Assembly: GCA_949285275.1 (NCBI GenBank)
Contig: CASEBP010000039.1
Span: 1 to 46,014, forward strand
Reading direction: 5' to 3'
Length of the DNA: 46,014 bases
From: an uncultured Oscillospiraceae bacterium
GTDB taxonomy: Bacteria; Bacillota; Clostridia; Oscillospirales; Ruminococcaceae
Each line of letters starts with the position of its first letter. The first letter of the stretch is position 1. A program made the position numbers and the translations under genes. The notes under the pieces were generated by a model. The model was not told the DNA's origin and did no database searches. It saw only the letters and a program-made list of their open reading frames with translations. Below are positions 1,451 to 15,732 of the stretch, piece after piece.

Positions 1451-3166
1451 TCAGCTGTCGCTGCAATCCTCATAGTGGGTGTGCAGCAGGTCGTGGGACT
1501 GTGCCTCCTCCGAAAGCAGCCCGTTATACAGATAGGTAATGACCGGGTTCTGTTCGGAGCTCTTGATCTGGGCGACCTTGTCAGCCCGGTAAAGGCCGCG
1601 GGCCCGCAAATTCTTCTCGGGCGAGAGGCCAAACGGCTGGCCGGCGCCGCCGATGCAGCCGCCCGGACAGGCCATGACCTCCACCAGATGATAGGATACC
1701 TCGCCCCGCTCGATCTTTTTAAGCAGCTCCTGGGCATTTTTCAGGCCGTGAACTACCGCAATGCGGATTTCGTCCCCTTCGATCTGGATCGTAGCCTCCT
1801 TGACCGACCGGTCCATTCCACGCACCCCGCTGTACTTGATCTCACGCAGCAGGTTATAGGTTTTTTTGCCCGAGACCCGGCGAATCACCGCTTCCGCCAC
1901 GCCGCCGGTGGTACCAAAGATGACCGCCGCGCCGCTTCCCATGCCGAGCGGCAGGTCGGGCGCATCGTCATCCAGCTCGTCAAACCGGATACCCATCTCC
2001 TTGATCATTGTGCTCAGGCCGCGGGTAGTCAGGACATAGTCGACATCCGGCACACCATTGCGGCGGAATTCCGGACGGGCGGCCTCGGCCTTTTTCGCAA
2101 CGCAGGGCATAATCGAAACGACCACCGTCTCCCGCGGGTCGGGGGTGGAAAGCTGACGCTGCGACTCCTTGATGACCGCGCCGAACATCTGCTGCGGGGA
2201 CTTGCAGCTCGACAGATGCGGGATGTACTTCGGGTTGGAGTTCTCGACATACCGCACCCACGCCGGGCAGCAGGAGGTGAACATCGGGAAGGGCCCGCCC
2301 TTCTTGAACCGCTCGATAAACTCGTGGGACTCCTCCATCACCGTCAGGTCGGCGCCCAGCGTCGTATCATAGACCTCGTCAAAGCCCAGACGGCGCATCG
2401 CTGCCACCAGTTTTCCCATCTCATTTTCTCCCGGCGCGAAGCCAAACGCCTCGCCGATCGCAACCCGCACCGCCGGAGCGATCTGGGCGACGACCCGCTT
2501 GCCGGGATCCTGCAATGCCTGCCAGACCTCGCCGATGTTATTGCGAACCGTAATGGCGCCGGTCGGGCAGACTGCCGCGCACTGGCCGCAGCTGATACAT
2601 TTGGTCTCAGAGATCTTGCGGTCGAAGGCGGGCATAACCCGCAGCTTGGAGCCGCGGTGGGCAAAATCAATGATACCCATCCCCTGGATCTCATCGCAAA
2701 CCCGCACACAGTCGCCGCACAGGATGCACTTGTTGGGATCGCGGATGATCGAACGGCTGCTCTCATCCTTCTCCATCGGCTCGCGGGTGTCGGGGAAGCG
2801 GATCCGCCGGATGCCAAACTGCTTGGCCAATTGCTGGAGCTTGCAATCGCCGTTCTTTTCACAGGTAGTGCAGTCACGGCAATGGGCGGCAAGCAGCAAT
2901 TCCAGAATCATCTTGCGGTAGCGCAGCGTCTTCTGGGTATTGGTGTAAATCCGCAGGCCGTTCTTGGGCTCCATCGAGCAGGACGCCTCGATCTTGCCCT
3001 GATCGGTTTCAACGACGCACATCCGGCAGGCGCCATAGGTCGAAAGCTCGGAGTAGTAGCAGAAGGTCGGAACCGAGATACCCGCCTTGCGGATGACCGA
3101 GAGCACGTTCTTTTCGCCGTCAAACTCGACGCGGCGATCGTCGACATACATAATTCCCTTGGCCAT
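1451..3166 (-). CDS. hydA: [FeFe] hydrogenase catalytic subunit of a bifurcating HydABC-type complex
   Basis: A 571-residue cytoplasmic hydrogenase that reduces protons with electrons from NADH and ferredoxin, or the reverse. It has an N-terminal [2Fe-2S] domain (Cys36, 47, 50, 63), a His-Cys3 cluster region (HCRDCTTCEKNGDC, about 95-108) and two [4Fe-4S] motifs (CILCGDCVRVC, CISCGQCAAVCP). All three H-cluster signatures are intact: TSCCPAW (297-303), MPCVAKKAE (353-361) and EVMACPGGCIGGAGQP (496-511). The start at 3166 is preferred over longer in-frame starts because GGAGGG lies 8 bases upstream and the N-terminus then matches the family. It is last in the hydC-hydB-hydA operon, 4 bases after hydB. 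Maturases HydEFG are not in the window. Confidence 0.95.
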   Translation of the reverse strand: MAKGIMYVDDRRVEFDGEKNVLSVIRKAGISVPTFCYYSELSTYGACRMCVVETDQGKIEASCSMEPKNGLRIYTNTQKTLRYRKMILELLLAAHCRDCTTCEKNGDCKLQQLAKQFGIRRIRFPDTREPMEKDESSRSIIRDPNKCILCGDCVRVCDEIQGMGIIDFAHRGSKLRVMPAFDRKISETKCISCGQCAAVCPTGAITVRNNIGEVWQALQDPGKRVVAQIAPAVRVAIGEAFGFAPGENEMGKLVAAMRRLGFDEVYDTTLGADLTVMEESHEFIERFKKGGPFPMFTSCCPAWVRYVENSNPKYIPHLSSCKSPQQMFGAVIKESQRQLSTPDPRETVVVSIMPCVAKKAEAARPEFRRNGVPDVDYVLTTRGLSTMIKEMGIRFDELDDDAPDLPLGMGSGAAVIFGTTGGVAEAVIRRVSGKKTYNLLREIKYSGVRGMDRSVKEATIQIEGDEIRIAVVHGLKNAQELLKKIERGEVSYHLVEVMACPGGCIGGAGQPFGLSPEKNLRARGLYRADKVAQIKSSEQNPVITYLYNGLLSEEAQSHDLLHTHYEDCSDS

Positions 3167-3170
3167 CGGG

Positions 3171-5051
3171 TCAGCCCTCCTTGATCGCGCCGAACGGGCA
3201 AGCCGCCTTACACGCGCCGCATTTGATACATTTGAGATTATCGATGACAAACGGCTTTTTGATCTCTCCGCTGATCGCCCCCACCGGGCAACCGCGTGCA
3301 CACTTGCTGCAGCCCTTGCAGATGGCGGGATCGATCGTGTACCGCTTGAGCCCCTGGCACTGGCCGGCGGGACAGCGCTTGTCGACGACATGGGCGAGAT
3401 ATTCGTCGCGGAAGTACTTCAGGGTGCTGGCTACCGGGGAGGCAGCGGTCTTGCCGAGACCACACAATGCGGTATCGGAGATCATGCCGGCAAGATCCTC
3501 GAGCATCGTGAGATCCTCCAACGTTCCCTCACCCGCAACGATCCGCTCAAGGATCTCGAGCATCCGGCGGGTGCCCTCCCGGCAGGGGACGCACTTGCCG
3601 CAGGACTCATTCTGGGTGAAGTGCATGAAGAACCGCGCCACCTCAACCATACAGGTATCTTCATCCATGACGACCAGGCCGCCCGAGCCAATCATCGCGC
3701 CAACCTTTTTGAGCGAATCAAAGTCAAGCGAAATATTCAGGTCGGAGGTGATCAGGCAGCCGCCCGACGGTCCGCCGATCTGCACCGCCTTAAACTTTTT
3801 GCCGTTTTTGATGCCGCCGCCGATGTCCATGATGACTTCGCGCAGCGTACTGCCCATCGGCACCTCGATCAGGCCGGTATTGTTGACGTTGCCGGTCAGG
3901 GCAAAGGCCTTTGTGCCGGGGCTCTTCTCGGGACCGATCGAGCGGTACCAGGCGGCTCCGTTCTGGATGATAAGCGGAACATTGGCAAAGGTCTCGACGT
4001 TGTTGAGAACGGTCGGCTTGCCGAACAGCCCCTGTTCCACGGTACGGGGCGGTTTGACCCGGGGCATGCCCCGGTTGCCCTCGATCGAAGCGGTCAGCGC
4101 GCTGCCCTCGCCGCAGACGAAGGCGCCCGCGCCGCGGTTGATATGCAGCCGGAACGAAAAGTTCGAACCGAGGATATTGTCCCCGAGCAGCCCCCACTCC
4201 TGGGCTTTGGCGATGGCGGTCTGCAGCCGGCGGATTGCCAGCGGGTACTCGGCGCGGACATAGATATAGCCCTCCTGGGCGCCGCAGGCATAGCCCGCGA
4301 TCATCATTCCCTCGAGCATCTTGTGGGGGTCGCCCTCCATGATGCTGCGGTCCATAAAAGCGCCGGGATCCCCCTCGTCGCCGTTGCAGACGACATAGTG
4401 AACCGGCTCGGGCTGACGGCGCACCTGTTCCCACTTTCTGCCGGCCGGGAAGCCGCCGCCGCCTCTGCCGCGCAGGTTGGATTCCAGGATGGTCTGGCAG
4501 ACCTCTGCCGGATTCATCTCAAAGAGCACCTTGGACAGCGCACTGTAGCCGCCCTTGGCGATGTACTCCAGGACGTCCTCTGCGTTGGTCTGGCCACAGT
4601 TGGACAGGACGATCCGGGTCTGCTTCTGATAGAAGGGGATCTCCTCCTGGTGCTGGTAGCGCTTGCCGTTCTGGGTATAGAGCAGACGTTCAATCACCTC
4701 ATCGCCGAGGATTGACCGCTCGATGATCTCATCACAGTCCTCGAGCTTGACCTTGATATAGAGCACGCCGAGCGGCTCGATTTTGAGCAGCGGCCCCATC
4801 TCGCAGAAGCCGTGGCAGCCCGACGCCTTAAGTCCGATATTCTCCCCGTGCGGCTCGTGGCGCAGCTCGACGCAGACGTCGATTCCCCGGGCACGGCAGG
4901 TTTCCTTGATCCGGTCATAGATCAGCAGCGAACCGCCCGCAATACAGCCGGTGCCACAGCAGACCAGCACCTTCTTCTGCTGCATCGAGAGGGAGTGCTG
5001 CGCCTGACAGCGGATCGATTCCAGTTCAGCCAGATTCTGAATCTTAGGCAT
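3171..5051 (-). CDS. hydB: NADH-binding flavoprotein subunit of [FeFe] hydrogenase (NuoF-like)
   Basis: 626 residues. The N-terminal ~100 residues form a thioredoxin-like [2Fe-2S] domain (CCGTGC at 31-36, CHGFC at 79-83). The NuoF core follows, with the glycine-rich NADH loop GRGGGGFPAG (195-204), the FMN loop NGDEGDPGAFMDR, an SLBB region, and a [4Fe-4S] site SCGKCVPCREG. The C-terminus adds two ferredoxin motifs (CKGCSKCARGCP, CIKCGACKAACP). This layout is that of HydB/HndC of multimeric hydrogenases, where NADH electrons enter and are split. It overlaps hydC by 8 bases. The AGGAG site for the ATG at 5051 sits inside the hydC end, suggesting translational coupling. Confidence 0.95.
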   Translation of the reverse strand: MPKIQNLAELESIRCQAQHSLSMQQKKVLVCCGTGCIAGGSLLIYDRIKETCRARGIDVCVELRHEPHGENIGLKASGCHGFCEMGPLLKIEPLGVLYIKVKLEDCDEIIERSILGDEVIERLLYTQNGKRYQHQEEIPFYQKQTRIVLSNCGQTNAEDVLEYIAKGGYSALSKVLFEMNPAEVCQTILESNLRGRGGGGFPAGRKWEQVRRQPEPVHYVVCNGDEGDPGAFMDRSIMEGDPHKMLEGMMIAGYACGAQEGYIYVRAEYPLAIRRLQTAIAKAQEWGLLGDNILGSNFSFRLHINRGAGAFVCGEGSALTASIEGNRGMPRVKPPRTVEQGLFGKPTVLNNVETFANVPLIIQNGAAWYRSIGPEKSPGTKAFALTGNVNNTGLIEVPMGSTLREVIMDIGGGIKNGKKFKAVQIGGPSGGCLITSDLNISLDFDSLKKVGAMIGSGGLVVMDEDTCMVEVARFFMHFTQNESCGKCVPCREGTRRMLEILERIVAGEGTLEDLTMLEDLAGMISDTALCGLGKTAASPVASTLKYFRDEYLAHVVDKRCPAGQCQGLKRYTIDPAICKGCSKCARGCPVGAISGEIKKPFVIDNLKCIKCGACKAACPFGAIKEG

Positions 5052-5532
5052 CGGCCAGCTCCTCCTTTCGAATCTCGGCGATCAGGGCGAGCGCCTTCTC
5101 GGGAGTCATCGCCGGATGGACCTTGTCGTCGATGGTCATAACCGGTGCAAGGCCGCAGGCTCCCAGGCAGGAGACCGTTTCGACGGTGAACAGCATGTCA
5201 TCGGTCGTCTTTTTCTTGCCCGAAACCCCCAGTTCCCGGTAGAGCGCCTCCAGGATCGGGATCGAATGCCGGACATGGCAGGCGGTCCCGTCGCAGATCC
5301 GGATGATATGTTTGCCCTTGGCTTCAAGCGAGAAGTTCTCGTAGAAGGTCGCGACGCTGTAGGCCTTCGCGGTGCTGATGCCCAGCCCCTCGGCAATCTG
5401 TTCGATCGCCGCCGCGGGCAGGTAGCGGTACTGCGCCTGCACATCCTGCATCACTGCAATCAGCGCCGACGGCTGATGCTCATAGCGGGCCAGAATCTGG
5501 TCCACCACTGCATCCCGGTTCTCTTTCTTCAT
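5044..5532 (-). CDS. hydC: [2Fe-2S] subunit of [FeFe] hydrogenase (NuoE-like)
   Basis: 162 residues of the thioredoxin-like ferredoxin (NuoE) family. An N-terminal helical part (ILARYEHQPSALIAVMQDVQ) precedes the four-cysteine cluster site: CDGTACHV around residue 90 and SCLGACGLAP around residue 130. It relays electrons within the HydABC complex. The ATG at 5532 has a strong GGAGGAG site. It is first in the operon, about 56 bases downstream of the predicted transcription start. Confidence 0.93.
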   Translation of the reverse strand: MKKENRDAVVDQILARYEHQPSALIAVMQDVQAQYRYLPAAAIEQIAEGLGISTAKAYSVATFYENFSLEAKGKHIIRICDGTACHVRHSIPILEALYRELGVSGKKKTTDDMLFTVETVSCLGACGLAPVMTIDDKVHPAMTPEKALALIAEIRKEELADA

Positions 5533-5594
5533 TCTGTCTCCTCCATTTGGCTGCCTTTCCGGCGTGGGACCGGAAAATTCCAGCGTTCAGTAAC

Positions 5595-5634
5595 AGTGTA
5601 AACAGCGACGGTACGCATGTCAATATATTAACAA
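5595..5634 (-). promoter_or_regulatory. Promoter of hydCBA with overlapping Rex-type operator
   Basis: On the minus strand TTGACA (5623-5618), a 17-base spacer and TACACT (5600-5595) form a near-consensus sigma-A promoter. The 18-base element TTGTTAATATATTGACAT (5634-5617) overlaps the -35. It matches the Rex consensus TTGTTAA-N4-TTAACAA at 12 of 14 fixed positions. Rex is the NADH/NAD redox repressor of Gram-positive fermenters, so it would release when NADH is high, a fitting control for an NADH-linked hydrogenase. The rest of the gap, 5635-5813, is AT-rich with nothing else recognised. Confidence 0.7.
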
Positions 5635-5813
5635 AATATTTCATATTCCCTGTCAAAAACCAGCATAGTTCATAAAATTCTTTCTGAATCCTCGTTAAAA
5701 TCGCAGAATATCCGCCTTATCCTGAAGGAAATCCTGCTTTTTCCCGTTCCGGCCACTTGACCAGATCCTGATTCGGCGGACAACGCAGTATCCCCTTTTG
5801 TCCGCCGTACAAA

Positions 5814-5847
5814 AAAGGCATACGCCGCTTAGCGGCGTATGCCTTTC
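5814..5847 (-). terminator. Rho-independent terminator of the tct operon
   Basis: A perfect 13-base stem (AGGCATACGCCGC with its complement, loop TTA) is followed on the minus strand by TTTTTT. It lies just past the tctA stop codon. Confidence 0.9.
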
Positions 5848-5864
5848 ATGCTCCCGCAGGGGGA

Positions 5865-7358
5865 TTAGCTCAGTTTTTTGGCCCGTCTGTTACGCAGCAG
5901 CGGAGCGACCAGCGTCGCCACCGCGATCAGCAGGAAGATAGCGGAAACCGGGCGGGTCAGGAAGGTGATGAAGCCCTCCGAGGTATAGGTCAGACCCTTG
6001 CGGAGATTCTGCTCGAGCATCGAGCCCAGGATGTAGGCCAGCAGCAGGGGGCTGATCGGCAGCCGGAAGTAATCCATCAGCATACCCAATGCCGCCATCA
6101 CCAGCATAACACCGCAGTTGAAGAGGGTGTTGGTGCTGGTGAAGGAACCAATAAACGCGATCACCAGCAGTGCCGGATAGAGATAGTGGTACGGAATGGT
6201 CAGCACCTTGGGATAGAACCGCATGGTCAGCAGCTCGATGATCAGCACCATAATGGCCGACAGCAGAATGGCGATAAAGACCATGTAAACAAAGGTGCCA
6301 TGCTGGTCAAAAAGCAGCGGGCCAGGTTCGATGCCATGAATAACCAGTCCGCCGAGCAGGATGGCCGTCGTGCTGTCCCCCGGGATACCGAGTGCAACCA
6401 TCGGAATAACCGCGCCGCCCACCGAGGCGTTATTGGAAACCTCCGACGCGAAGACGCCATCGATGCAGCCCTGTCCAAACCGTTCCGGATGTTTCGAGCT
6501 GCTCTTGGCCTGAGCGTAGGCAACCATGTTGGACAGGCCCGAGCCCATGCCGGGCAAAAAGCCGATCCACAGGCCAATAAAGAAGGATCGGATGATGTTG
6601 ACCAGGTTATCCTTCCATTCCTGCAGGGTGATACCCGCGCCCCGGATATCGACCTTCTCCATCTCCGGAGGCTTGAGTCCGCCTTTGGAGAAGTCGGAGG
6701 CGATCAGACGGATCGCAAACATGCCCAACACCAGGGCGATGGTATCGATACCACCCAGAAGGTTGTAGTTGTCGAAGGTAAACCGCCGGTAGGCGTCGAT
6801 CGGCGAGAAGCCGACCGAGCAGAGCAGCAGCCCGATGAAGGCAGAGGCCAGCCCCCGGACGGTATCGCCCTGGGAAAGTCCGACGACCAGGACGATCGCA
6901 CAGGTACACAGCGAGAAGTATTCCCACGGGCCGAGCTTGACGGCGAGGTGGGCAATGGGCGGGCTGAGGAAAGTTGCAATGATAACGCTGAAAAAGGTTC
7001 CGATAAACGATCCCAGAATGCCCGCTTTCAGGGCTTTGACAACCTGGCCTTTGCGGCACATCGGGTAGGCGTCATAACAGGTTGCGATAGACGAGGTGGA
7101 GCCGGGAATCCCCAGCAGCGTCGCCGAAATGAAGGCGCCCGACACGCCGCCGACCCAGACGCTCAGCAGCAGGGCAAAGCCGTTGGCCTCGGTCATGCCG
7201 AAGGTGACCGGCAGCAGCAGCGCCACCCCGAGCATTCCCGAAAGTCCCGGGATCGCCCCGAAGATGATGCCAACCACGCAGCCAAACAGCATCAGTCCGA
7301 TTGCGACGGGGGTCATCAGGCTCATAAAAGCCGTTCCAATTGTACTCATAATGCCCAT
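5865..7358 (-). CDS. tctA: Tripartite tricarboxylate transporter, large membrane subunit
   Basis: 497 residues, very hydrophobic, with about a dozen membrane segments. It matches the TctA family: the glycine/proline-rich signature GAIPGLSGMLGVALLLPVTFGM near the N-terminus, and the repeated-half features GFLPGMGSGLSNMVAYAQAK and GIPGDSTTAILLGGLVIHG. Together with the small subunit TctB and the binding protein it imports a carboxylated solute by secondary transport. The ATG at 7358 has a GGGGGG site and lies 12 bases after tctB. It is the last gene of a minus-strand operon headed by the D-threonine aldolase-like gene, so its solute probably feeds that pathway (inference). Confidence 0.93.
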   Translation of the reverse strand: MGIMSTIGTAFMSLMTPVAIGLMLFGCVVGIIFGAIPGLSGMLGVALLLPVTFGMTEANGFALLLSVWVGGVSGAFISATLLGIPGSTSSIATCYDAYPMCRKGQVVKALKAGILGSFIGTFFSVIIATFLSPPIAHLAVKLGPWEYFSLCTCAIVLVVGLSQGDTVRGLASAFIGLLLCSVGFSPIDAYRRFTFDNYNLLGGIDTIALVLGMFAIRLIASDFSKGGLKPPEMEKVDIRGAGITLQEWKDNLVNIIRSFFIGLWIGFLPGMGSGLSNMVAYAQAKSSSKHPERFGQGCIDGVFASEVSNNASVGGAVIPMVALGIPGDSTTAILLGGLVIHGIEPGPLLFDQHGTFVYMVFIAILLSAIMVLIIELLTMRFYPKVLTIPYHYLYPALLVIAFIGSFTSTNTLFNCGVMLVMAALGMLMDYFRLPISPLLLAYILGSMLEQNLRKGLTYTSEGFITFLTRPVSAIFLLIAVATLVAPLLRNRRAKKLS

Positions 7359-7370
7359 AGACGTCCCCCC

Positions 7371-7835
7371 TCAGAACAGTACGCCACGCGGCAGCATGAC
7401 CGACAGAATCTCAACGAACACATAATAGAGCGCGCCGGTAACACAAACGGTATACAGCAGGTGTTTCCAGAGCGCCATCGGCTTGCCGAAGGTGAACATA
7501 TAGGAGAGGACCAACAGTACAATCGGCGTGATAACCAGGAAGCCGAGGTACTTGAGTCCCAGCATATACACAACCAGCAGCACAGCCAACTTGGCAATGG
7601 CGCTCAGCTCATCGCGGGAAAGCTGCGGCTCATTCTCCCGATCCTTCTGGAAAAAGATCAGAATGCCGCAGATCAGAAGCCCCGTCCCTCCGATGATCGG
7701 GAAAAGAGAGGGTCCTGGATCGGTATTGAGCAGACCGGCCGGGGTGTAGCGGGAAGCCGCCAATGTGGCGGCTCCCCCCAGTAATGCACATAAAATCCCG
7801 CACAGCCTGCTTCTGGTCAAAAAGGCCCTGTTCAA
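7371..7835 (-). CDS. tctB: Tripartite tricarboxylate transporter, small membrane subunit
   Basis: 154 residues with four predicted membrane segments, the size and topology of TctB. The family is poorly conserved, so the call rests mainly on position between the binding protein and TctA. The start is TTG at 7835: GGAGGG lies 7 bases upstream and no ATG gives a better N-terminus. The first segment (LCGILCALLGGAATLAA) is followed by a periplasm-facing-type loop. Confidence 0.85.
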   Translation of the reverse strand: MNRAFLTRSRLCGILCALLGGAATLAASRYTPAGLLNTDPGPSLFPIIGGTGLLICGILIFFQKDRENEPQLSRDELSAIAKLAVLLVVYMLGLKYLGFLVITPIVLLVLSYMFTFGKPMALWKHLLYTVCVTGALYYVFVEILSVMLPRGVLF

Positions 7836-7856
7836 ACAAATCCCTCCAACCGGATA

Positions 7857-8900
7857 TTACTTCATGAGGCCGATCGCCTGCGCGACCTTGAAAATCGAAT
7901 CCTGTGTCTCGGTCATCCGGGTGATGCTGTCCTCGACATTGAGCCATTCCACCGGCATGTTGATGGTGTTGTGGACATCGATGACCGACTGCACGTTGAC
8001 AGCCTCGCCGATAGCGGCATTGATCTTTTCCACCGTCGCCTCGTCGATTCCCTTCGGTCCAAGGATGTAGAAATCGGTGCCATACAGGCAGTCCTCATAG
8101 CCCAGCTCATAGAGCGACGGGATGTCGGGGAGGTTGGGATCGCGGTCGGGGCTGCCGGCGATGGTGGCCAGAATCTTCAGGTCGCCCGACTCGGTATAGG
8201 GCTTGGCATTCTTGCTGTTGAGGAAGCAGAAGGTCATATGACCGCCCTGCATTGCGGCCAGCTTCTCCTGGTCGGAGCCCGCCTCGATCATTTTGAAGTC
8301 AGCGCCGGTGTCATAGATCAGCATACCGGTCATGATATGGGACGAAGAGCCATTCTGGATGCCGGCCGTGATCTTGCCGGGGTTGGCCTTGGCATCGTTG
8401 ATCAGATCCTCCATCGTGTTGTAGGGGGAATCGGCCGCCACGACGACCGAATAGGAACCGCCGGCCGGCAGGTTGGAAATAACGGTGAAGTCCTCGAGCG
8501 GGTTCTTGTCATAAAGTCCGGTCGCGATGCTGACAAAAATACCGGAATGGTAGTAGAGCAGCGTCGTTGCGTCGGTGGGGGCGTTTCTGGTGTTCTCAAA
8601 CGCCACAACGCCCGAGCCGTCGGTCTGGTTGACCACGACGAAGTCGCTGGAGAAATCGCTCTGCAGTACACTGGCGAAGGCACGTGCGCTCAGATCGGTG
8701 GCGCCGCCGGCAGCAGCCGGGACAAGCAGCTGGACCGTCGAAGTCGGCCAGTCGGACTCAGCGGGTTGAGCCTCAGCCTCGGATCCGCCCGAAGCCGCAG
8801 GTGCAGCCGGCGCGGACGAAGAACTCGTCTGCGAAGAGCCGCAGCCCACCAGAGCAAGCAGCAGGCACAGGACCAACACGAATGCGGTACACTTTTTCAT
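7857..8900 (-). CDS. tctC: Tripartite tricarboxylate transporter substrate-binding lipoprotein (Bug/TctC family)
   Basis: 347 residues. A lipoprotein signal peptide ends in the lipobox LVGC (Cys about residue 20), followed by a Ser/Ala/Pro-rich linker (about 21-48). The two-lobed Bug domain begins at WPTSTVQLLVPAAAGGATDLSARAFA, the family region that binds the carboxylate of the ligand. The ATG at 8900 is chosen. A further in-frame ATG at 8918 lies within the AAGGAGAG ribosome site and is unlikely to be used. It is first of the three transporter genes, 67 bases after the D-threonine aldolase-like gene with no terminator between. Confidence 0.92.
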   Translation of the reverse strand: MKKCTAFVLVLCLLLALVGCGSSQTSSSSAPAAPAASGGSEAEAQPAESDWPTSTVQLLVPAAAGGATDLSARAFASVLQSDFSSDFVVVNQTDGSGVVAFENTRNAPTDATTLLYYHSGIFVSIATGLYDKNPLEDFTVISNLPAGGSYSVVVAADSPYNTMEDLINDAKANPGKITAGIQNGSSSHIMTGMLIYDTGADFKMIEAGSDQEKLAAMQGGHMTFCFLNSKNAKPYTESGDLKILATIAGSPDRDPNLPDIPSLYELGYEDCLYGTDFYILGPKGIDEATVEKINAAIGEAVNVQSVIDVHNTINMPVEWLNVEDSITRMTETQDSIFKVAQAIGLMK

Positions 8901-8967
8901 AGGGACACTCTCCTTCACGATTCACTGATATTCTTTCCTTTGCCGGAGCAAAGGTCCTTCGACGATG

Positions 8968-10071
8968 TCAAACCGACCGGCCGCGGGCGACAACTGGCGT
9001 CCGGGTGTAGGACCCATCCCGCTCACGGATGTAGATTTCGTTGAGCAGGTTGACACAGGTGCAGATATGATTGGGGATAATTGAGAGAACCTGCCCGACA
9101 TGCAGTCCCGTCTCGCCGTCGCAGATGATCATGCCGTGCTCCTCGTTCATCCGCTCGAGGATCAGATCGTCCCGCCCGACGATCCGCCCGTACCCGTTGA
9201 GGTACATCGGTTCGGCGTGCAGCTTGGAATCTCCCGCCAGCACCTTAGTACCGGCATCAATGACGGCGCGGTTCTTCTCGGGGGTGCTGACCACCGTCAC
9301 CTTAATGACTCCGCAGCATTCCTGAGCAGACGCAGCCTGTTGAACGATCCGCTGGGCATCCTGGAAAACATAGGTGCCGGGACGGATCTCGGTCACTCCT
9401 TCGACCGCCGCCACATAAGGGGCAGTGGGAGTTGATCCGGCGCTGACATCCCGGATCGGAACGCCGGCTTCCCGCAGCGCCTGAGCCGTCTCCACCAGCA
9501 GCTCTCCTTCCTCCCGACCGGCCGCCTTGGGATCAAGGGTCGGCTTCTCCTGATAGATCATTGCCTTATAGGTGAAGATCCCGCTCAGGTTGATGTGAGG
9601 CAGTGCGGCGATCCGCTTGCCCAGTTCGACCGCCTCGGAGCGGATGACGCCGGTGCGGTGTGCGCCGGTATCGATCTCCAGCCGGACCTCGGCAGTGATT
9701 CCCCTGCGCTGTGCCGCCTGGGAGATTGCGCTGGCGCCCTCCATACTGTCGACACCGCAGATCATCCGGATCCGCTCGCTCAGATCGAGAAAGCGCTCGA
9801 CCTTCTGTTCTCCGATGACGGGATAGGCCATGAAGATATCATCAAAGCCGTGATCCGCCATGACCTCCGCTTCGCCCAGTTTCGCACAGGTGAGGCCGAC
9901 CGCACCGTACTCGATCTGGAGCCGTGCCAGACGGGGGATCTTGTGGGTCTTGATGTGCGGCCGCAGCGCGCAGCCGTTCTGATCCGCATATCCCTGGAAC
10001 TTCCTCATATTGTGTTCGATGACCGACAGATCTGCGATAAGCGCCGGGGTCTGAATTTCTGAATACTCCAT
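8968..10071 (-). CDS. D-threonine aldolase / D-serine dehydratase-like PLP enzyme
   Basis: 367 residues. It has an N-terminal alanine-racemase-type PLP barrel with the signature RPHIKTHK (Lys41 the probable PLP lysine), and a C-terminal D-serine dehydratase-like domain with the metal pair His335/Cys337 in PNHICTC. Known members split D-threonine into glycine and acetaldehyde, or deaminate D-serine to pyruvate via 2-aminoacrylate. I cannot decide between them from sequence. A RidA protein in the divergent operon, which removes 2-aminoacrylate, slightly favours the dehydratase. The ATG at 10071 is preferred because longer reading frames upstream run through the promoter. It heads a minus-strand operon with tctCBA, behind a perfect sigma-54 promoter. 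Confidence 0.88.
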   Translation of the reverse strand: MEYSEIQTPALIADLSVIEHNMRKFQGYADQNGCALRPHIKTHKIPRLARLQIEYGAVGLTCAKLGEAEVMADHGFDDIFMAYPVIGEQKVERFLDLSERIRMICGVDSMEGASAISQAAQRRGITAEVRLEIDTGAHRTGVIRSEAVELGKRIAALPHINLSGIFTYKAMIYQEKPTLDPKAAGREEGELLVETAQALREAGVPIRDVSAGSTPTAPYVAAVEGVTEIRPGTYVFQDAQRIVQQAASAQECCGVIKVTVVSTPEKNRAVIDAGTKVLAGDSKLHAEPMYLNGYGRIVGRDDLILERMNEEHGMIICDGETGLHVGQVLSIIPNHICTCVNLLNEIYIRERDGSYTRTPVVARGRSV

Positions 10072-10166
10072 ATTTCCTGACCATCTCCTCTGTCTGTTGT
10101 TGCGCCGGATCCGATTGGAAACGGCTGTCCGAATTGGTGCTTTCGTACATTTCACGTCCATTTTTG

Positions 10167-10182
10167 AGCAATTCCTGTGCCA
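10167..10182 (-). promoter_or_regulatory. Sigma-54 promoter of the aldolase-tctCBA operon
   Basis: On the minus strand TGGCAC-AGGAA-TTGCT, with GG (10181-10180) and GC (10169-10168) separated by exactly 10 bases. It matches the -24/-12 consensus TGGCAC-N5-TTGCW throughout. The predicted transcription start is near 10156, about 85 bases before the ATG at 10071. Confidence 0.85.
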
Positions 10183-10286
10183 AATCCCCATAATCCGCCT
10201 GTACAGCCTCTTACTGCCGCCGTAATCGACGTCTTGCGCCTCCCCTGCTCTGGTCGTATAATGAGGTGGGCGTTTCGATTTGCGAC

Positions 10287-10330
10287 GCTTCGTTTCAAAT
10301 TGAATAATTCGTGCTATTTTGAAACAAAGC
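10287..10330. promoter_or_regulatory. Inverted-repeat activator site between divergent sigma-54 promoters
   Basis: Left arm GCTTCGTTTCAAA (10287-10299) and right arm TTTGAAACAAAGC (10318-10330) are inverted repeats matching at 12 of 13 positions, with an 18-base AT-rich spacer. The centre lies about 126 bases from the -24 of the minus promoter and about 107 from that of the plus promoter, the usual distance for upstream activating sequences of sigma-54 activators. The likely ligand is the activator encoded at 11642 (inference). Confidence 0.7.
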
Positions 10331-10415
10331 AGTTGCGGATGCTCCGGCCACTTCCCCGTACGCCGGTCCTCCCCGCTTTGCCGCGGTCGGGTACGCGCCT
10401 CCCCCGGAGGCTTCA

Positions 10416-10431
10416 TGGCATGTTTTTTGCT
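10416..10431 (+). promoter_or_regulatory. Sigma-54 promoter of the amidohydrolase-activator-ridA operon
   Basis: TGGCAT-GTTTT-TTGCT, with GG (10417-10418) and GC (10429-10430) separated by exactly 10 bases. There is one mismatch to consensus (T for C at the end of the -24 element). Transcription would start near 10442, about 50 bases before the ATG at 10493. Confidence 0.8.
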
Positions 10432-10492
10432 TTCCAATGATCATGGTGCTTTCGTCGGCTGGAACCACATTTTCTTGGGAGGTAAATGAACC

Positions 10493-11596
10493 ATGCATTT
10501 TCCGCAAAAAGTAAACGCCTATGATCCGCAGAACCGACGCTTTATCGGCGGGGTGCTGACGCAGGAGGAGGGCCGGGTTGTCTTTTGCCAGCAGCAGGAT
10601 CATCCGGCCGACACCGATCTGTACATCGCCCCCGGCTTCGTCGATATGCATGTCCATCTCTTTGACGGCTATGGCATCTTTGGGATGCATGCGTCCAAAT
10701 TTGGCCACGCATGGGGGGTCCATGTCATGTCGGACGCCGGATCCTGCGGAATCGACAACATCGACGCCTTCTGCCGGTACGTCCTGCCCACCTACCAGGG
10801 GATCATCATCCCCAAGCTGTGGATGAACGTCTGCCGGTTCGGCCTGCCCAGCAATCACGAGTGCATCGATTTTTCGATGCTCGCCCCGCAGGAGACTGCA
10901 TCGACGGCCCTCCAGTACCCTGGCCTGGTGGTAGGCATCAAGGTGCGCCTCAACTGCGATATCCCCGAAAAGGACTGCCTGGTTCCGCTCGAGCGGGCGC
11001 TGGAAGCCGCCGAGCTGGCCAATATGCCGCTGATGGTCCATATCAGCCAGGGTCCTCCCGCCGGCCGGGATATTCTGCCCCGCCTGCGTAAGGGGGATGT
11101 CGTCACCCATATCTTTAACGGGAAGCCCGGCAGCCCCTGGACCGAGGACGGTGCTCCCATTCCCGAGCTGCTCGATGCTCAGGAGCGCGGCGTTCTCTTC
11201 GACGTGGCGCACGGCTACTCCAGCTTCAACTTCCAGACCTGTACCCGGGCGATCGCCCACGGCTTTACCGATGTCAGCGTCAGCACCGACATGCACAAGC
11301 GCTGCCTGCTCGGCAAGCCCTTCACCTTTACCGATGTAATGACCAAGGTTCACGCCTGCGGCCTGTCGCTTGAGAAGATTCTCTATGGCGTCACTCGCAA
11401 GCCGGCTGAGATGCTGGGGATGTACGATTGGGCGACGCTGGAGAACATGAAGGAAAATGCCACCATCTTCTCCTACGCCGACAATACGGCGGGCCGGGAG
11501 TTCTTCGACGCCTTCGGCAACAGCGCCATCCCCGAAAAGGTCTTCACTCCCAAAGCGGTGATCGTCAACGGAAGGTGGAATGAGCTGACAAACTGA
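10493..11596 (+). CDS. COG3964-type amidohydrolase, putative N-acyl amino acid or acyl-hydroxyacid hydrolase
   Basis: 367 residues of the amidohydrolase superfamily, often mislabelled dihydroorotase. The binuclear metal site is complete: His53 and His55 (DMHVH), Lys150 (GIKVRLN, the carbamylated lysine), His183 (MVHIS), His206 (VTHIFNG) and catalytic Asp266 (STDMH). Characterised COG3964 members remove acetyl groups from acetyl-(R)-mandelate and N-acetyl-D-amino acids. A similar deacylation here would release a substrate for the divergently encoded PLP enzyme (inference). The ATG at 10493 has GGGAGG upstream. It is first gene of the plus-strand sigma-54 operon. Confidence 0.85.
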   Translation: MHFPQKVNAYDPQNRRFIGGVLTQEEGRVVFCQQQDHPADTDLYIAPGFVDMHVHLFDGYGIFGMHASKFGHAWGVHVMSDAGSCGIDNIDAFCRYVLPTYQGIIIPKLWMNVCRFGLPSNHECIDFSMLAPQETASTALQYPGLVVGIKVRLNCDIPEKDCLVPLERALEAAELANMPLMVHISQGPPAGRDILPRLRKGDVVTHIFNGKPGSPWTEDGAPIPELLDAQERGVLFDVAHGYSSFNFQTCTRAIAHGFTDVSVSTDMHKRCLLGKPFTFTDVMTKVHACGLSLEKILYGVTRKPAEMLGMYDWATLENMKENATIFSYADNTAGREFFDAFGNSAIPEKVFTPKAVIVNGRWNELTN

Positions 11597-11641: not shown

Positions 11642-13630
11642 ATGATCAAAATCACGCTGGTTAACCTCAAAGGACCGCTCAAACAGGCCTTCTGCGAGGT
11701 ATTCGAGAGTCACAGTATGCCCAAGGAGGAGATCTGGGCCAATCGTGAATCCTTTGAGCTGGAATCGCTGGTGGCCGACGTTGAGGACCCCGATTTCTGG
11801 AAAACGGTTCAGAGCGACTGCTTCATCTCACGGGGGTATTCCTATCTGTGCTTGTCCAACATGCACCTCGATATCCCGGTGGTCGAGCCCCCTTTTTTCA
11901 TCTTCGACGCCATCAATGCGATGCAGGAATGCAAGCGGCTATACCCGGATAAGAAGATCGCGATGATTGCCAGCCGGCGTTCGCTGTTTGGCACCCAGGA
12001 CGTCGCCCGGCTGCTCGGACTGGACATCCACTTCTACTATGTCCCTATCCAGGCACACCTGGTGGAATCGGAAAAATGTATCCGGCGCGCCATCGCCGAC
12101 GGATGCGAGGTCATCGTCGCCGGCGCGCAGATCATCGAACAGGTTCCTTTCTCTCCCGACCTCAAGTGTGTCATTATCACCGTCTGTGAGGAGTCGGTCT
12201 ATAACGCGCTGACCGAAGCCAAGCGGCTGGCGATCATCTACCGCCATGAACGCGAGCAGAGTCAGAACATCCAGACTATCCTCGATGCGGTCCATGACGG
12301 AATTCTTGCCGTCAACCAGGAGCATCGGGTCCTGATCTGCAATCAGATTGCGGCCCAGCACTTGGGATTGAAGAAGGAATCTCTCGCCGGGCAGGACATC
12401 CGGGATCTGTCCCGTATTCAGCCCTTTGCCGAGCTGCTCAGCAGCGGTACCGCCGCCTCCGGCAGTCTGCTGGACTTCCGCGGCAAGACCTTCGCGGTCA
12501 ATAAGGCTGATTCGGTTCTCGACGGGCGGTGCATCGGCTCCATTCTCACCTTCCGGGACATCACCGAGGTCCAGGAACTGGAGCGAAAGATCCGCAACAA
12601 GATCAAACAGGAGGGCCATCTGGCCAAACACACCTTTGACGACATTATCGGAAACAGCCCCGCGCTTCGGGACGCCGTACACAAAGCCAGGGAGTTCGCC
12701 CATTCGGAATCGAACCTGCTGATCGTCGGGGAAACGGGGGTAGGCAAGGAGATCTTCGCCCAGAGCATCCACAACGACAGCGCCCGGCGCAATGGCGCCT
12801 TTGTGGCTGTCAACTGCGCCGCGCTGGCTGAAAACCTGCTGGAGAGCGAACTGTTCGGCTATGTCGACGGCGCCTTCACCGGTGCAGTCAAGGGCGGACA
12901 TCCCGGGCTTTTCGAACTGGCGCAGGGCGGAACCATCTTCCTTGACGAGATCTCGGAGATCTCCCCCAACCTCCAGGCCAAGCTGCTGCGGGTTCTGCAG
13001 GAACGGGAGGTCCGGCGGGTCGGCTCAAACTATGTGATTCCGGTCAACATCCGGGTCATCTGCGCCACCAACCGGGATCTGCTGCAGGAGGTACAGGAAA
13101 AGCGGTTCCGCAACGACCTGTACTACCGTCTCAACGTCCTGCAGCTCTTTATTCCGCCGCTGCGGCAGCGCGGGGAGGACTGCATCCTGCTGATGGAACA
13201 TGCGATTCAGCAGCAGTGTTTGCAGCTGGGCCGGGAACCGGTTCAACTGACCCCTGGGGCCTGCCGGCGGCTGCTCGCCTACCCGTGGCCCGGCAACGTC
13301 CGGGAGCTGGTCAATGCCTCCGAACGGATCTGTGTGCTGGAGAAGGGCCCTGAGATCGGAGAGGAAAAACTCGACGACATTCTCCGGGACCACCCGCTTG
13401 CCCACCCGGACAGCCTGTCGCAGCCTGACAGTTCCTGTGACGTACAGCCCGACAGCCCCCCCAGCCTTCAACCGGAGCGGCAGCGGATTGAAATCGCGCT
13501 GCGCCTGTCGGGAAACAACCGTGAAAAAGCCGCACAGATGCTGGGAATCAGCCGCAGTACCCTGTGGCGGAAAATCCGGCACTATCGGCTGGAATTCATT
13601 GAAAAAAGGAGCGTTTCAGATGAAGATTGA
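11642..13630 (+). CDS. Sigma-54-dependent transcriptional activator, PrpR-N type
   Basis: A 662-residue enhancer-binding protein. It has an N-terminal PrpR-like sensor domain (about 40-200; FFIFDAINAMQE, VIVAGAQIIEQV) and a PAS domain (about 208-320; ILDAVHDGILAVNQEHRVL). The AAA+ domain (about 335-560) has Walker A GETGVGKE (about 362), the sigma-54 contact loop GAFTGA (about 410) and FLDEISE. A Fis-type helix-turn-helix closes it (ALRLSGNNREKAAQMLGISRSTLWRKI). The ATG follows GGGAGG. It sits between the amidohydrolase and ridA, downstream of one of two sigma-54 promoters that it probably controls. A positive feedback loop is therefore likely. The effector is probably the pathway substrate or intermediate. 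Confidence 0.95.
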   Translation: MIKITLVNLKGPLKQAFCEVFESHSMPKEEIWANRESFELESLVADVEDPDFWKTVQSDCFISRGYSYLCLSNMHLDIPVVEPPFFIFDAINAMQECKRLYPDKKIAMIASRRSLFGTQDVARLLGLDIHFYYVPIQAHLVESEKCIRRAIADGCEVIVAGAQIIEQVPFSPDLKCVIITVCEESVYNALTEAKRLAIIYRHEREQSQNIQTILDAVHDGILAVNQEHRVLICNQIAAQHLGLKKESLAGQDIRDLSRIQPFAELLSSGTAASGSLLDFRGKTFAVNKADSVLDGRCIGSILTFRDITEVQELERKIRNKIKQEGHLAKHTFDDIIGNSPALRDAVHKAREFAHSESNLLIVGETGVGKEIFAQSIHNDSARRNGAFVAVNCAALAENLLESELFGYVDGAFTGAVKGGHPGLFELAQGGTIFLDEISEISPNLQAKLLRVLQEREVRRVGSNYVIPVNIRVICATNRDLLQEVQEKRFRNDLYYRLNVLQLFIPPLRQRGEDCILLMEHAIQQQCLQLGREPVQLTPGACRRLLAYPWPGNVRELVNASERICVLEKGPEIGEEKLDDILRDHPLAHPDSLSQPDSSCDVQPDSPPSLQPERQRIEIALRLSGNNREKAAQMLGISRSTLWRKIRHYRLEFIEKRSVSDED

Positions 13631-14081
13631 ACAACGGATTGAAGAACTCGGCTATCAGCTTCCGCCGGTGTCGGTTCCCGCCCATCCCTACCGCCCCGTC
13701 GTGGTCTTCAACCGGACCGCCTACATCAGCGGCCAGGTCGCCAAGCAGAACGGCGCGGTCATGATGTCGGGCCGGGTTCCCGATGAGATCTCGGTTGAGG
13801 AGGCACAGAAGTGTGCCGTCCAGTCGACACTGCAGGCGCTGGCCTACCTCAAGCAGGAAATCGGCGATCTGGATCGGGTCGAGCGGTTTTTGAAGGTGAC
13901 CGGCTTTGTCTATTCCCAGCCCGGCTTCGGCGAGCAGCCGCAGGTCATCAACGCCTGCTCACGGCTGCTGCAGGAGATCTTCGGCGAAGCGGGCCAACAC
14001 GCCCGTTCGGCGATCGGGATGGCGGCACTGCCGACCAGCACTCCGGTGGAAATCGAAATGATCGTCGCGCTGCGCGACTGA
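13620..14081 (+). CDS. RidA/YjgF-family enamine/imine deaminase
   Basis: 153 residues. The YjgF fold is recognisable from NRTAYISGQVAKQNG through the C-terminal HARSAIGMAALPTSTPVEIEM, which holds the conserved arginine and the EIE segment of active RidA proteins. RidA hydrolyses 2-aminoacrylate and related imines released by PLP enzymes. The ATG at 13620 overlaps the activator gene by 11 bases and uses an AGGAG site inside it. Its place in this operon suggests it clears the reactive product of the D-threonine aldolase/D-serine dehydratase-like enzyme. A bidirectional terminator follows. Confidence 0.92.
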   Translation: MKIEQRIEELGYQLPPVSVPAHPYRPVVVFNRTAYISGQVAKQNGAVMMSGRVPDEISVEEAQKCAVQSTLQALAYLKQEIGDLDRVERFLKVTGFVYSQPGFGEQPQVINACSRLLQEIFGEAGQHARSAIGMAALPTSTPVEIEMIVALRD

Positions 14082-14090
14082 TAACAAAAA

Positions 14091-14121
14091 AACAGAGGCC
14101 TTTACGGCCTCTGTTTTTTAT
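14091..14121. terminator. Bidirectional rho-independent terminator
   Basis: Stem AACAGAGGCC / GGCCTCTGTT with loop TTTAC, preceded by A-run and followed by TTTT. It ends ridA (plus) and the NhaC-type gene (minus). Confidence 0.9.
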
Positions 14122-14138: not shown

Positions 14139-15665
14139 TCAGTTGTCCTTTTCCCCGCCGAATGCGCGGTGCAGCGCCACCATGATGCCAATAAGCAGCA
14201 GGAAGGAGGTGCCCAGGGTCAGCAGCAGGTTTCCGTTGGTAAAGCCCGCAACCAGGTACCCGAAGAAGCAGCAGAACGCCACCACAATACAGTAGGGCAG
14301 CTGGGTCGAAACATGCTCGATATGGTCGCAGCCGGCACCAGCCGAAGCCATGATGGTGGTATCGGAGATCGGCGAGCAGTGGTCACCGAAGACCGAGCCA
14401 GCCAGCGAAGCGGCAAGCGCGGGAACGATCAGCGCGGGGGCGACCGTCTCACAGATGGCGAAGACGATCGGGATCAGAATGCCAAAGGTGCCCCAGGAGG
14501 TACCCATCGAGAAGGAGAGGCCGGCCGCGATCAGGAAGGTCACGGCGGGCAGGACCTGCACGGGAATATTGCTGCTCTGCACCACCTGGCTGACAAAGTC
14601 GCCCGTCATCAGCAGATCACGGCAGACCCCCGAGATAGTCCAGGCCAGCACCAGGATGATATCAGCGGGAACCATCGACTTGATGCCCTCGGTAATCCCG
14701 TTCATGAATTCCCGTGCGGTCATCAGCTGGCGGGGCACAAACTGCACAAAGGCGAAGACCAGCGCCACAAAGGAACCAATGACCAGCGCCGGACCGGACG
14801 AGCAGTTGCCAAACGCTTCAGCCAGCGTCATACCGCCCGCAAAGTAGCCGCCATTTTCCAGCATGGCCAGCGCCGACACCACAATCAGCACGATAACCGG
14901 CAGGATCAGATCCCAGACACTGCCGCGGTCCGAAACCTCCAGTTTGGTCTCGCTGCTCACATCCACCGCACCGAGGTCTCCCTTTTTGGCACGGGCTTCA
15001 GCGCGGGCCATCGGCCCAAAGTCCACATTGGTCAGCGAAAGCAGTATAATCAGCACAATGGACAGCAGCGCATAGAGGTTATAAGGGACGGTCGCGACCA
15101 TCGCATGGATACCGCTGTCAAACAGATGGCTGTCCTCGGGCAGCGACGAGATAACCGCCGCACCCCAGCTCGAGATCGGCGCAATGATACAGATCGGGGC
15201 AGCGGTGGCATCGATCAGATAGGCCAGCTTGGCCCGCGAAATAGCGTACCGGTCGGTGACCGGCTTCATGACGGTACCAACGGTCAGGCAGTTGCAGTAG
15301 TCGTCGATGAAGATCAGCGCGCCGAGCCCGCCGGTAGCCAGCATCGCGCTGCCCCGGCTTTTAAGCTTGCGGTTCATCAGAGCACCGTACGCCTTTGACC
15401 CGCCGGCGCGGGTGATCAGCTCGACCAGGGCGCCGACCAGCGCCAGGAAGAGGATGATGTTCAGATCAAACCGGCTTCCCATCAGGTCAAAGGTATTTTT
15501 CAGGGTATCGACGACCAGATTCTGACCCATCGCAGCGGTATAGATCAGGGTTCCGGACAGGATACCGATCATCAGCGAGGAAATAACCTCCTTGGTGATC
15601 AGCGCCAGTCCGATGGCGATGATGGGGGGCAGGATCGAAAGCCAGCCCACATTGACAGCTTCCAT
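14139..15665 (-). CDS. NhaC-family transporter under lysine riboswitch, probable lysine transporter
   Basis: 508 residues with about 11-12 membrane segments and NhaC-superfamily motifs (GALIFIDDYCNCLTVGTVMKPV, APISSWGAAV, FGDHCSPISDTTIMASAG). Sequence alone would say Na+/H+ antiporter. The gene lies directly behind a lysine riboswitch, and NhaC-type proteins under such control have been proposed as lysine transporters, so lysine import is the better reading. The ATG at 15665 is chosen because AGGAAGG lies 7 bases upstream. An in-frame ATG 30 bases earlier precedes this ribosome site. Single-gene operon. Confidence 0.88.
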   Translation of the reverse strand: MEAVNVGWLSILPPIIAIGLALITKEVISSLMIGILSGTLIYTAAMGQNLVVDTLKNTFDLMGSRFDLNIILFLALVGALVELITRAGGSKAYGALMNRKLKSRGSAMLATGGLGALIFIDDYCNCLTVGTVMKPVTDRYAISRAKLAYLIDATAAPICIIAPISSWGAAVISSLPEDSHLFDSGIHAMVATVPYNLYALLSIVLIILLSLTNVDFGPMARAEARAKKGDLGAVDVSSETKLEVSDRGSVWDLILPVIVLIVVSALAMLENGGYFAGGMTLAEAFGNCSSGPALVIGSFVALVFAFVQFVPRQLMTAREFMNGITEGIKSMVPADIILVLAWTISGVCRDLLMTGDFVSQVVQSSNIPVQVLPAVTFLIAAGLSFSMGTSWGTFGILIPIVFAICETVAPALIVPALAASLAGSVFGDHCSPISDTTIMASAGAGCDHIEHVSTQLPYCIVVAFCCFFGYLVAGFTNGNLLLTLGTSFLLLIGIMVALHRAFGGEKDN

Positions 15666-15732
15666 AGTGATACCTTCCTTTTCTTTCTCATTCACGACAT
15701 TATCTCAACGGCGCCGTCCGGCGCCGGCCTGC

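Follow-up and report, generated by a model that had tools for sequence, protein, structure and literature searches.

Divergent -24/-12 promoters around a cluster of repeats beside a gene for a PrpR-type sigma-54 activator: a candidate one-activator switch for two operons

How might a single activator protein control two operons that are read away from each other? The question is posed by an intergenic gap of 421 bp, between a minus-strand gene start at 10071 and a plus-strand gene start at 10493, in a DNA stretch of 46,014 nucleotides from an uncultured Oscillospiraceae bacterium (this whole analysed stretch is referred to here as the window). Two outward-facing sequences of the sigma-54 type lie in this gap:

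10167..10183, minus strand: -24/-12 promoter sequence TTGGCACAGGAATTGCT of the minus operon, 12/12 to consensus, predicted start 10156
10415..10431, plus strand: -24/-12 promoter sequence ATGGCATGTTTTTTGCT of the plus operon, 11/12 to consensus, predicted start 10442

The minus promoter reads TTGGCAC-N5-TTGCT (10183-10167) and the plus promoter ATGGCAT-N5-TTGCT (10415-10431); in both, the GG-N10-GC spacing is exact. Their -24 elements are 234 bp apart, and each predicted start was placed 12 bases past the C of the -12 element. Scored by matches out of 12 to the consensus TTGGCAYN5TTGCT, they rank first and second in the 46-kb window with 12/12 and 11/12, and the next in rank are four sites at 10. 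Dinucleotide shuffling of the window (200 shuffles) gave 0.21 sites of at least 11/12 per shuffled window, and a divergent pair no more than 500 bp apart was absent from all 200. In the 2.01-Mb assembly the pattern TGGCA-N6-TTGCW occurs eight times, and two of the eight are this pair; the reversed-pattern control occurs three times. The original prediction had called for two outward promoters with exact spacing at this place, and both are there as the two best-scoring sites of the window. At the level of sequence, a divergent -24/-12 pair around a cluster of repeats is therefore confirmed as an observation.

The assembly (2.01 Mb, about 92% complete, 175 contigs) also carries an rpoN gene, whose absence had been named as grounds for abandoning the prediction; a profile search of the assembly found it as a PF04552 match (E 1.9e-55) in a 470-aa open frame on contig C45. 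Six strong Sigma54_activat genes are present in the genome: the one next to the promoters, and five others.

11642..13630, plus strand: sigma-54 activator of the form PrpR_N-PAS-AAA+(GAFTGA)-HTH_8, by Pfam match; second gene of the predicted plus operon

This protein scores 70.5 bits to PF06506 (PrpR_N), 231.8 to PF00158 (sigma-54 AAA+) and 46.7 to PF02954 (Fis-type HTH), and its recognition helix is ISRSTLWRK. With a PrpR_N domain, an AAA+ domain that contains the GAFTGA motif and a Fis-type HTH, its predicted architecture is that of a PrpR-type sigma-54 activator, and the cognate-looking activator that had been ascribed to the plus operon is indeed a member of the PrpR_N class, encoded by the second plus-strand gene. 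Two narrower assignments were tried and rejected: the score to the propionate regulator PrpR proper (TIGR02329) is 335.8 bits, below the equivalog cut-off of 499.2, and that to PrdR (NF041552) is 400.4 bits, below a cut-off of 795.

If this activator acts on both promoters, its binding sites should be sought between them. The repeats there can be described in two ways:

10271..10287, no strand assigned: predicted activator site 1, CGTTTCG-ATT-TGCGACG; 11/14 to CGTTTCA-N3-TGAAACG, self-symmetry 4/7
10291..10307, no strand assigned: predicted activator site 2, CGTTTCA-AAT-TGAATAA; 11/14, self-symmetry 4/7, centre 10299
10310..10326, no strand assigned: predicted activator site 3, CGTGCTA-TTT-TGAAACA; 10/14, self-symmetry 3/7
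10287..10330, no strand assigned: inverted repeat of the original prediction; arms 12/13, carrying the strong left half of site 2 and the strong right half of site 3

A single inverted repeat with 13-base arms, 12 of 13 matching, had been proposed as the activator site. The repeat is present as described, and its distances of 126 and 107 bases to the -24 elements are right if taken from its centre; what does not stand is the word single, as three tandem 17-bp sites describe the element better. An inverted repeat of this grade (arm gap 3-40) arises in 11 of 2000 shuffles of the 421-bp gap. Repeats of equal grade are found at eleven other places in the window, so that the inverted repeat alone is not special.

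The description as three sites starts from the half-site of Salmonella PrpR, CGTTTCA, two of which abut in the published palindrome (PMC4987338); the enhancer is listed there as CGTTTCATGAAACG (Table 1). This half-site is found exactly in the left arm of the inverted repeat. We scanned for CGTTTCA-Nn-TGAAACG with n from 0 to 14 and a cut-off of 10/14, which, like the 11/12 used below for the promoters of relatives, was set after the window had been viewed. Among these spacers, n=3 alone yields more than one gap site of at least 10/14; such sites number 11 in the 46 kb, and three of the 11 stand in tandem in the gap. With the other 14 spacers, three non-overlapping sites within 60 bp occur nowhere in the window, and spacer 0, the abutting form of Salmonella PrpR, gives no gap site of at least 10/14. 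A triple built on the CGTTTCA half-site with any spacer from 0 to 14 appeared in none of 20000 gap shuffles. The 3-bp spacer was fitted by eye after viewing the sequence, so the fair figure is the one from 300 gap shuffles in which the half-site was freely chosen: 11 reach 30, one reaches 32 and none reaches the observed 33.

The sites themselves are imperfect. All three fall below a cut of 5/7 for self-symmetry, sites 2 and 3 each depend on a single good half, and a self-symmetry of at least 4/7 is found in 23 of the 405 17-mers of the gap. Because of this poor self-symmetry, we regard the three-site array predicted between the promoters as likely, not certain, and the inverted repeat as a serious rival. 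Genome-wide, sites of this kind with at most two mismatches give 53 strand-hits against 28 for the reversed control; of the three predicted sites, site 2 alone is among these hits. The gap contains no exact TGT-N6..15-ACA; set against TGT-N10..12-ACA, sites 1, 2 and 3 read CGT-N11-ACG, CGT-N11-TAA and CGT-N11-ACA. Rfam at gathering score reports nothing in 9900-10700.

The placement of the array bears on whether it could serve both sides. The centre of site 2 stands 143 bp away from each predicted start, and the three centres lie at -163, -143 and -124 relative to the plus start and at -123, -143 and -162 relative to the minus start, mirror-symmetric within 1 bp. To the TGG of the -24 elements the distances are 137, 117 and 98 bp on the plus side and 97, 117 and 136 bp on the minus side, near the lower limit of the 100-250 bp range that PMC6615313 gives for activator sites in Clostridiales. 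The inverted repeat is off centre, with the predicted starts 133.5 and 152.5 bp away. The symmetric design that had been proposed fits the predicted three-site array, which is centred midway between the promoters, better than the 44-bp repeat to which it had been attached. The mirror layout rests on predicted starts and may be partly luck.

We assign a probability of roughly 0.6 to the following reading: the PrpR-like activator binds the three repeats as three dimers that make up one hexamer, and activates both sigma-54 promoters by looping of the DNA. The parts of it that we infer are the binding of the activator to the predicted sites, the use of these sites by both promoters, and a signal in the form of a small ligand bound by the PrpR_N domain. 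In outline, basal transcription, perhaps from a sigma-A-like site at 10280-10308, would supply the first activator; a small ligand would then signal through the PrpR_N domain; three dimers on the three predicted sites would form one hexamer; and this hexamer would remodel sigma-54 polymerase at either promoter through a DNA loop. The activator's gene is itself transcribed, by this reading, from the plus sigma-54 promoter; once switched on, that operon would raise the level of activator, and the circuit would be a self-amplifying switch whose first activator comes from weak basal transcription. A further proposal is that a lone hexamer, equidistant from both promoters, loops to one at a time, so that the two halves of the pathway alternate and keep a fixed ratio and the switch as a whole is bistable; we consider this unlikely.

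Other explanations keep parts of this reading and change the rest. The two sigma-54 promoters could share the activator and yet use the 44-bp inverted repeat as its site, with one unit per arm, about three helical turns apart. The arms, matching at 12 of 13 positions as in 11 of 2000 shuffles, agree far better than do the halves of the three 17-bp sites (4, 4 and 3 of 7), and in one relative (L146) two neighbouring sites jointly make one long inverted repeat. However, this arrangement omits the site at 10271-10287, which matches a PrpR-type site at 11/14, it takes as its element a repeat that is off centre between the predicted starts, and the TGT-Nn-ACA sites of relatives are 15-18 bp long; we find it tentative and on the whole doubtful. 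Alternatively, the array could serve one side only, the promoters either answering to different activators or not both being used, with the minus promoter under another activator of the genome. Six strong Sigma54_activat genes would provide candidates, but the gap holds no second triple, the array lies equally far from the two promoters and the activator encoded next to them is the most natural partner, which makes such a division improbable.

It is also conceivable that the repeats are a sigma-A promoter with a repressor operator and that the -24/-12 matches are unused. A sigma-70-like site, TTGCGA-17-AATAAT (9/12), does overlap the repeats, at 10280-10308; against this, sites of that grade number two in the 1.3 kb scanned where 0.7 are expected by chance, and the -24/-12 pair is far beyond chance. 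We hold this explanation to be very improbable, and the sigma-A-like site may have a part as the source of basal activator.

What would be controlled is suggested by the genes on either side of the gap:

8968..10071, minus strand: PLP enzyme resembling D-threonine aldolase and D-3-hydroxyaspartate aldolase; heads the predicted minus operon
7857..8918, minus strand: TctC-type solute-binding protein, by family match
7371..7835, minus strand: TctB, by family match
5865..7358, minus strand: TctA, by family match
5813..5847, no strand assigned: strong hairpin after TctA with 13-base perfect arms, likely end of the minus operon
10493..11596, plus strand: metallohydrolase of amidohydrolase/deacetylase-like type; heads the predicted plus operon
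13620..14081, plus strand: Rid/YjgF-family protein, by family match, in the predicted plus operon
14086..14120, no strand assigned: hairpin flanked by A and T tracts, from an inverted-repeat scan, likely terminator of the plus operon

The PLP enzyme matches Pfam Ala_racemase_N and D-ser_dehydrat and has PDB sequence relatives 7dib, 4v15 and 6qkb; among solved structures, the closest to it in sequence are D-threonine aldolases and a D-3-hydroxyaspartate aldolase. The metallohydrolase, of the PRK09237/EF_0837 kind, scores 25.7 bits to Amidohydro_1 against a cut-off of 25, and its matches to NF006689 and TIGR03583 are both under their cut-offs. Under the shared-activator model, the minus operon would supply TctABC uptake and the D-threonine-aldolase-like enzyme, and the plus operon the amidohydrolase and the Rid protein. 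Judged by gene family, the two operons would suit a pathway that degrades a D- or hydroxy-amino acid in N-acylated or cyclic form. A minus-strand gene at 14139-15695, which converges on the plus operon, encodes a transporter of the Na+/H+ antiporter family; elsewhere in Clostridiales, nhaC is listed as a predicted sigma-54 target (PMC6615313). Farther off, three adjacent minus-strand genes at 1451-5532 resemble, by eye, an electron-bifurcating [FeFe] hydrogenase with HydA-, NuoF- and NuoE-like subunits.

Is such a design new? It had been called unusual, a claim that gives way before published cases (zraP/zraSR, hyc/hyp-fhlA and orp1/orp2) in which divergent sigma-54 operons answer to one activator. 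In Salmonella and E. coli, zraP and zraSR have divergent sigma-54 promoters under one activator, ZraR, whose gene belongs to one of the two operons (PMC4987338; the spacer is also listed in PMC8743547). To judge by its sequence, the window likewise has outward -24/-12 promoters in one gap and an activator gene in one operon, but ZraR is a two-component response regulator, whereas the window's activator is of the PrpR_N-PAS type and both arms look catabolic. FhlA differs too, as it senses formate through domains other than those of the window's activator. Its gene stands at the end of one operon of the divergent sigma-54 pair hycA/hypABCDE-fhlA of enterobacteria (PMC8743547, PMC3844500), and the distance between the -24 elements is 114 bp at hycA/hyp of Salmonella (PMC3844500) against 234 bp here. 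At orp1/orp2 of Desulfovibrio vulgaris, DVU2106 acts at palindromic sites to keep two divergent sigma-54 operons in step; unlike the activator proposed here, it has its own sigma-70 promoter, which it represses, and IHF is needed (PMC3897727).

Other loci share single traits. At norR-norVW of E. coli, three NorR sites seed one hexamer, as we propose for the window (PMC2941729). Those sites, in contrast to the ones predicted here, serve one sigma-54 promoter. The norR gene itself is not known to be sigma-54-driven. At the sox locus of Bacillus thuringiensis, a Firmicute amino-acid locus, two sigma-54 promoters use one UAS under SoxR, but the layout differs, and SoxR's own promoter has no -24/-12 sequence (PMC4941409). 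Titles describing divergent sigma-54 loci of this sort in Firmicutes were not found among open papers, a source so limited that the result says little. The window's locus is best seen as a neat new case of an arrangement that other bacteria are already known to have. Its mirror layout would suit it well to a mechanistic question: when a single hexamer on an enhancer faces two promoters, does it act on both at once, alternate between them, or make them compete? The locus also extends the list of sigma-54 loci in this Clostridia genome by one that is predicted to be catabolic, with TctABC for uptake and a D-threonine-aldolase-like enzyme.

To place the locus among its relatives, we examined activators at several distances. 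The nearest orthologues (P0001, P0002 and P0003; 66, 60 and 59% identity, from the best 120 of 6982 matches) are proteins from short contigs. In a family sample of 396 genomes, with at most three candidates scored per genome and an activator E of 1e-110 or better, nine related genes were found in four genomes besides the window's own, at 37-41% identity. All nine have a -24/-12 site of at least 11/12 no more than 400 bp from the stretch that matched the activator, ten promoters altogether: six on the activator's strand and 3' of it, and four diverging from the activator start. From these positions it follows that, in the stretches read, none reads into the activator gene from upstream, unlike in the window.

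The 260 bp upstream of these ten promoters contain 12 TGT-N9..12-ACA sites, at six of the ten; the shuffle control has a mean of 1.8 and reaches 12 in none of 2000. The TGT-Nn-ACA sites of the relatives are 15-18 bp long, and TGT-N10..12-ACA motifs are reported for 15 Clostridiales activator groups (PMC6615313). An adaptive site search, run without a shuffle control, gave several A+T-rich relatives scores equal to or above the window's; for these reasons the TGT-Nn-ACA count, which has such a control, is the only site result used from that set. Recognition helices could be compared for six of the nine (those of L147, L148 and L151 were not recovered). Two relatives with helices resembling the window's have sites of similar letters: L152 (ISRTTLWRK), with TGTTTCAATTGTGAACA picked out by eye, and L153 (ISQSTLWRR), with TGTGTCAAATTGAAATA. 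In L145 (MDRSTLWRK) and L149 (IDRTTLWRK), whose helices are also similar, sites with window-like letters were not found.

More distantly, 84 activator loci were found and 80 kept. In these 80, GTTTCA/TGAAAC pairs are not enriched (two matches at spacer 3; 0, 0 and 2 for scrambled controls) in a scan that demanded exact core bases in the first half. One locus (L027) has another of the window's genes in its neighbourhood, a weak NhaC match. A divergent -24/-12 pair 60-600 bp apart, both of at least 11/12, occurs at none of 89 loci (the 80 distant and the nine from the family).

The enzymes were followed in the same way, in order, class and family sets that are samples of those groups. Besides the window's own, amidohydrolase relatives were found in none of four same-genus genomes (E 1e-20), in none of 393 order genomes (1e-70) and in two of 390 class genomes (1e-60), both without an activator match in the stretches read. 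Aldolase relatives occur in seven of 296 family genomes besides its own (1e-60); none has an activator match in the DNA read around it, which for one of them amounts to just 3.2 kb, and an 11/12 -24/-12 site stands elsewhere in the stretch at two of the seven loci and is missing from the other five.

A similar cassette is seen in a genome of the same genus (G004, locus L116), where TctABC, an aldolase relative (34-36%), Rid and an Amidohydro_3 enzyme lie at 1687-9142 beside an IclR regulator. The 14 kb read there contain no -24/-12 site of at least 11/12, and control of the cassette may therefore have been swapped. An aldolase relative and a Rid gene are close together in L113, L114, L115 and L116, and an Amidohydro_3 enzyme adjoins the aldolase in L113 and L116, the two scanned; this suggests a recurring cassette of the D-amino-acid type in L113-L116.

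Three smaller observations concern repeats. Just downstream of both predicted starts in the window, at 10135-10146 and 10444-10455, is an exact 12-base direct repeat, TGGTGCTTTCGT; a repeat of this kind occurs in 37 of 5000 shuffled gaps, and it is possibly the site of a second regulator. An RNA switch in which the two leaders pair through it was considered and rejected, as shuffling of the leaders gave a duplex of equal or greater stability in 829 of 1000 pairs. Among the activator's relatives, L148 has a perfect 18-bp dyad, TGTTGCA-TCGT-TGCAACA, 202 bases upstream of a minus-strand -24/-12 site at 6824, and L146 has neighbouring dyads, TGTTGCTATTTAGGAACC and TGTTCCTAAATAGCAACA, that form one long inverted repeat 131-95 bases upstream of the site at 9514.
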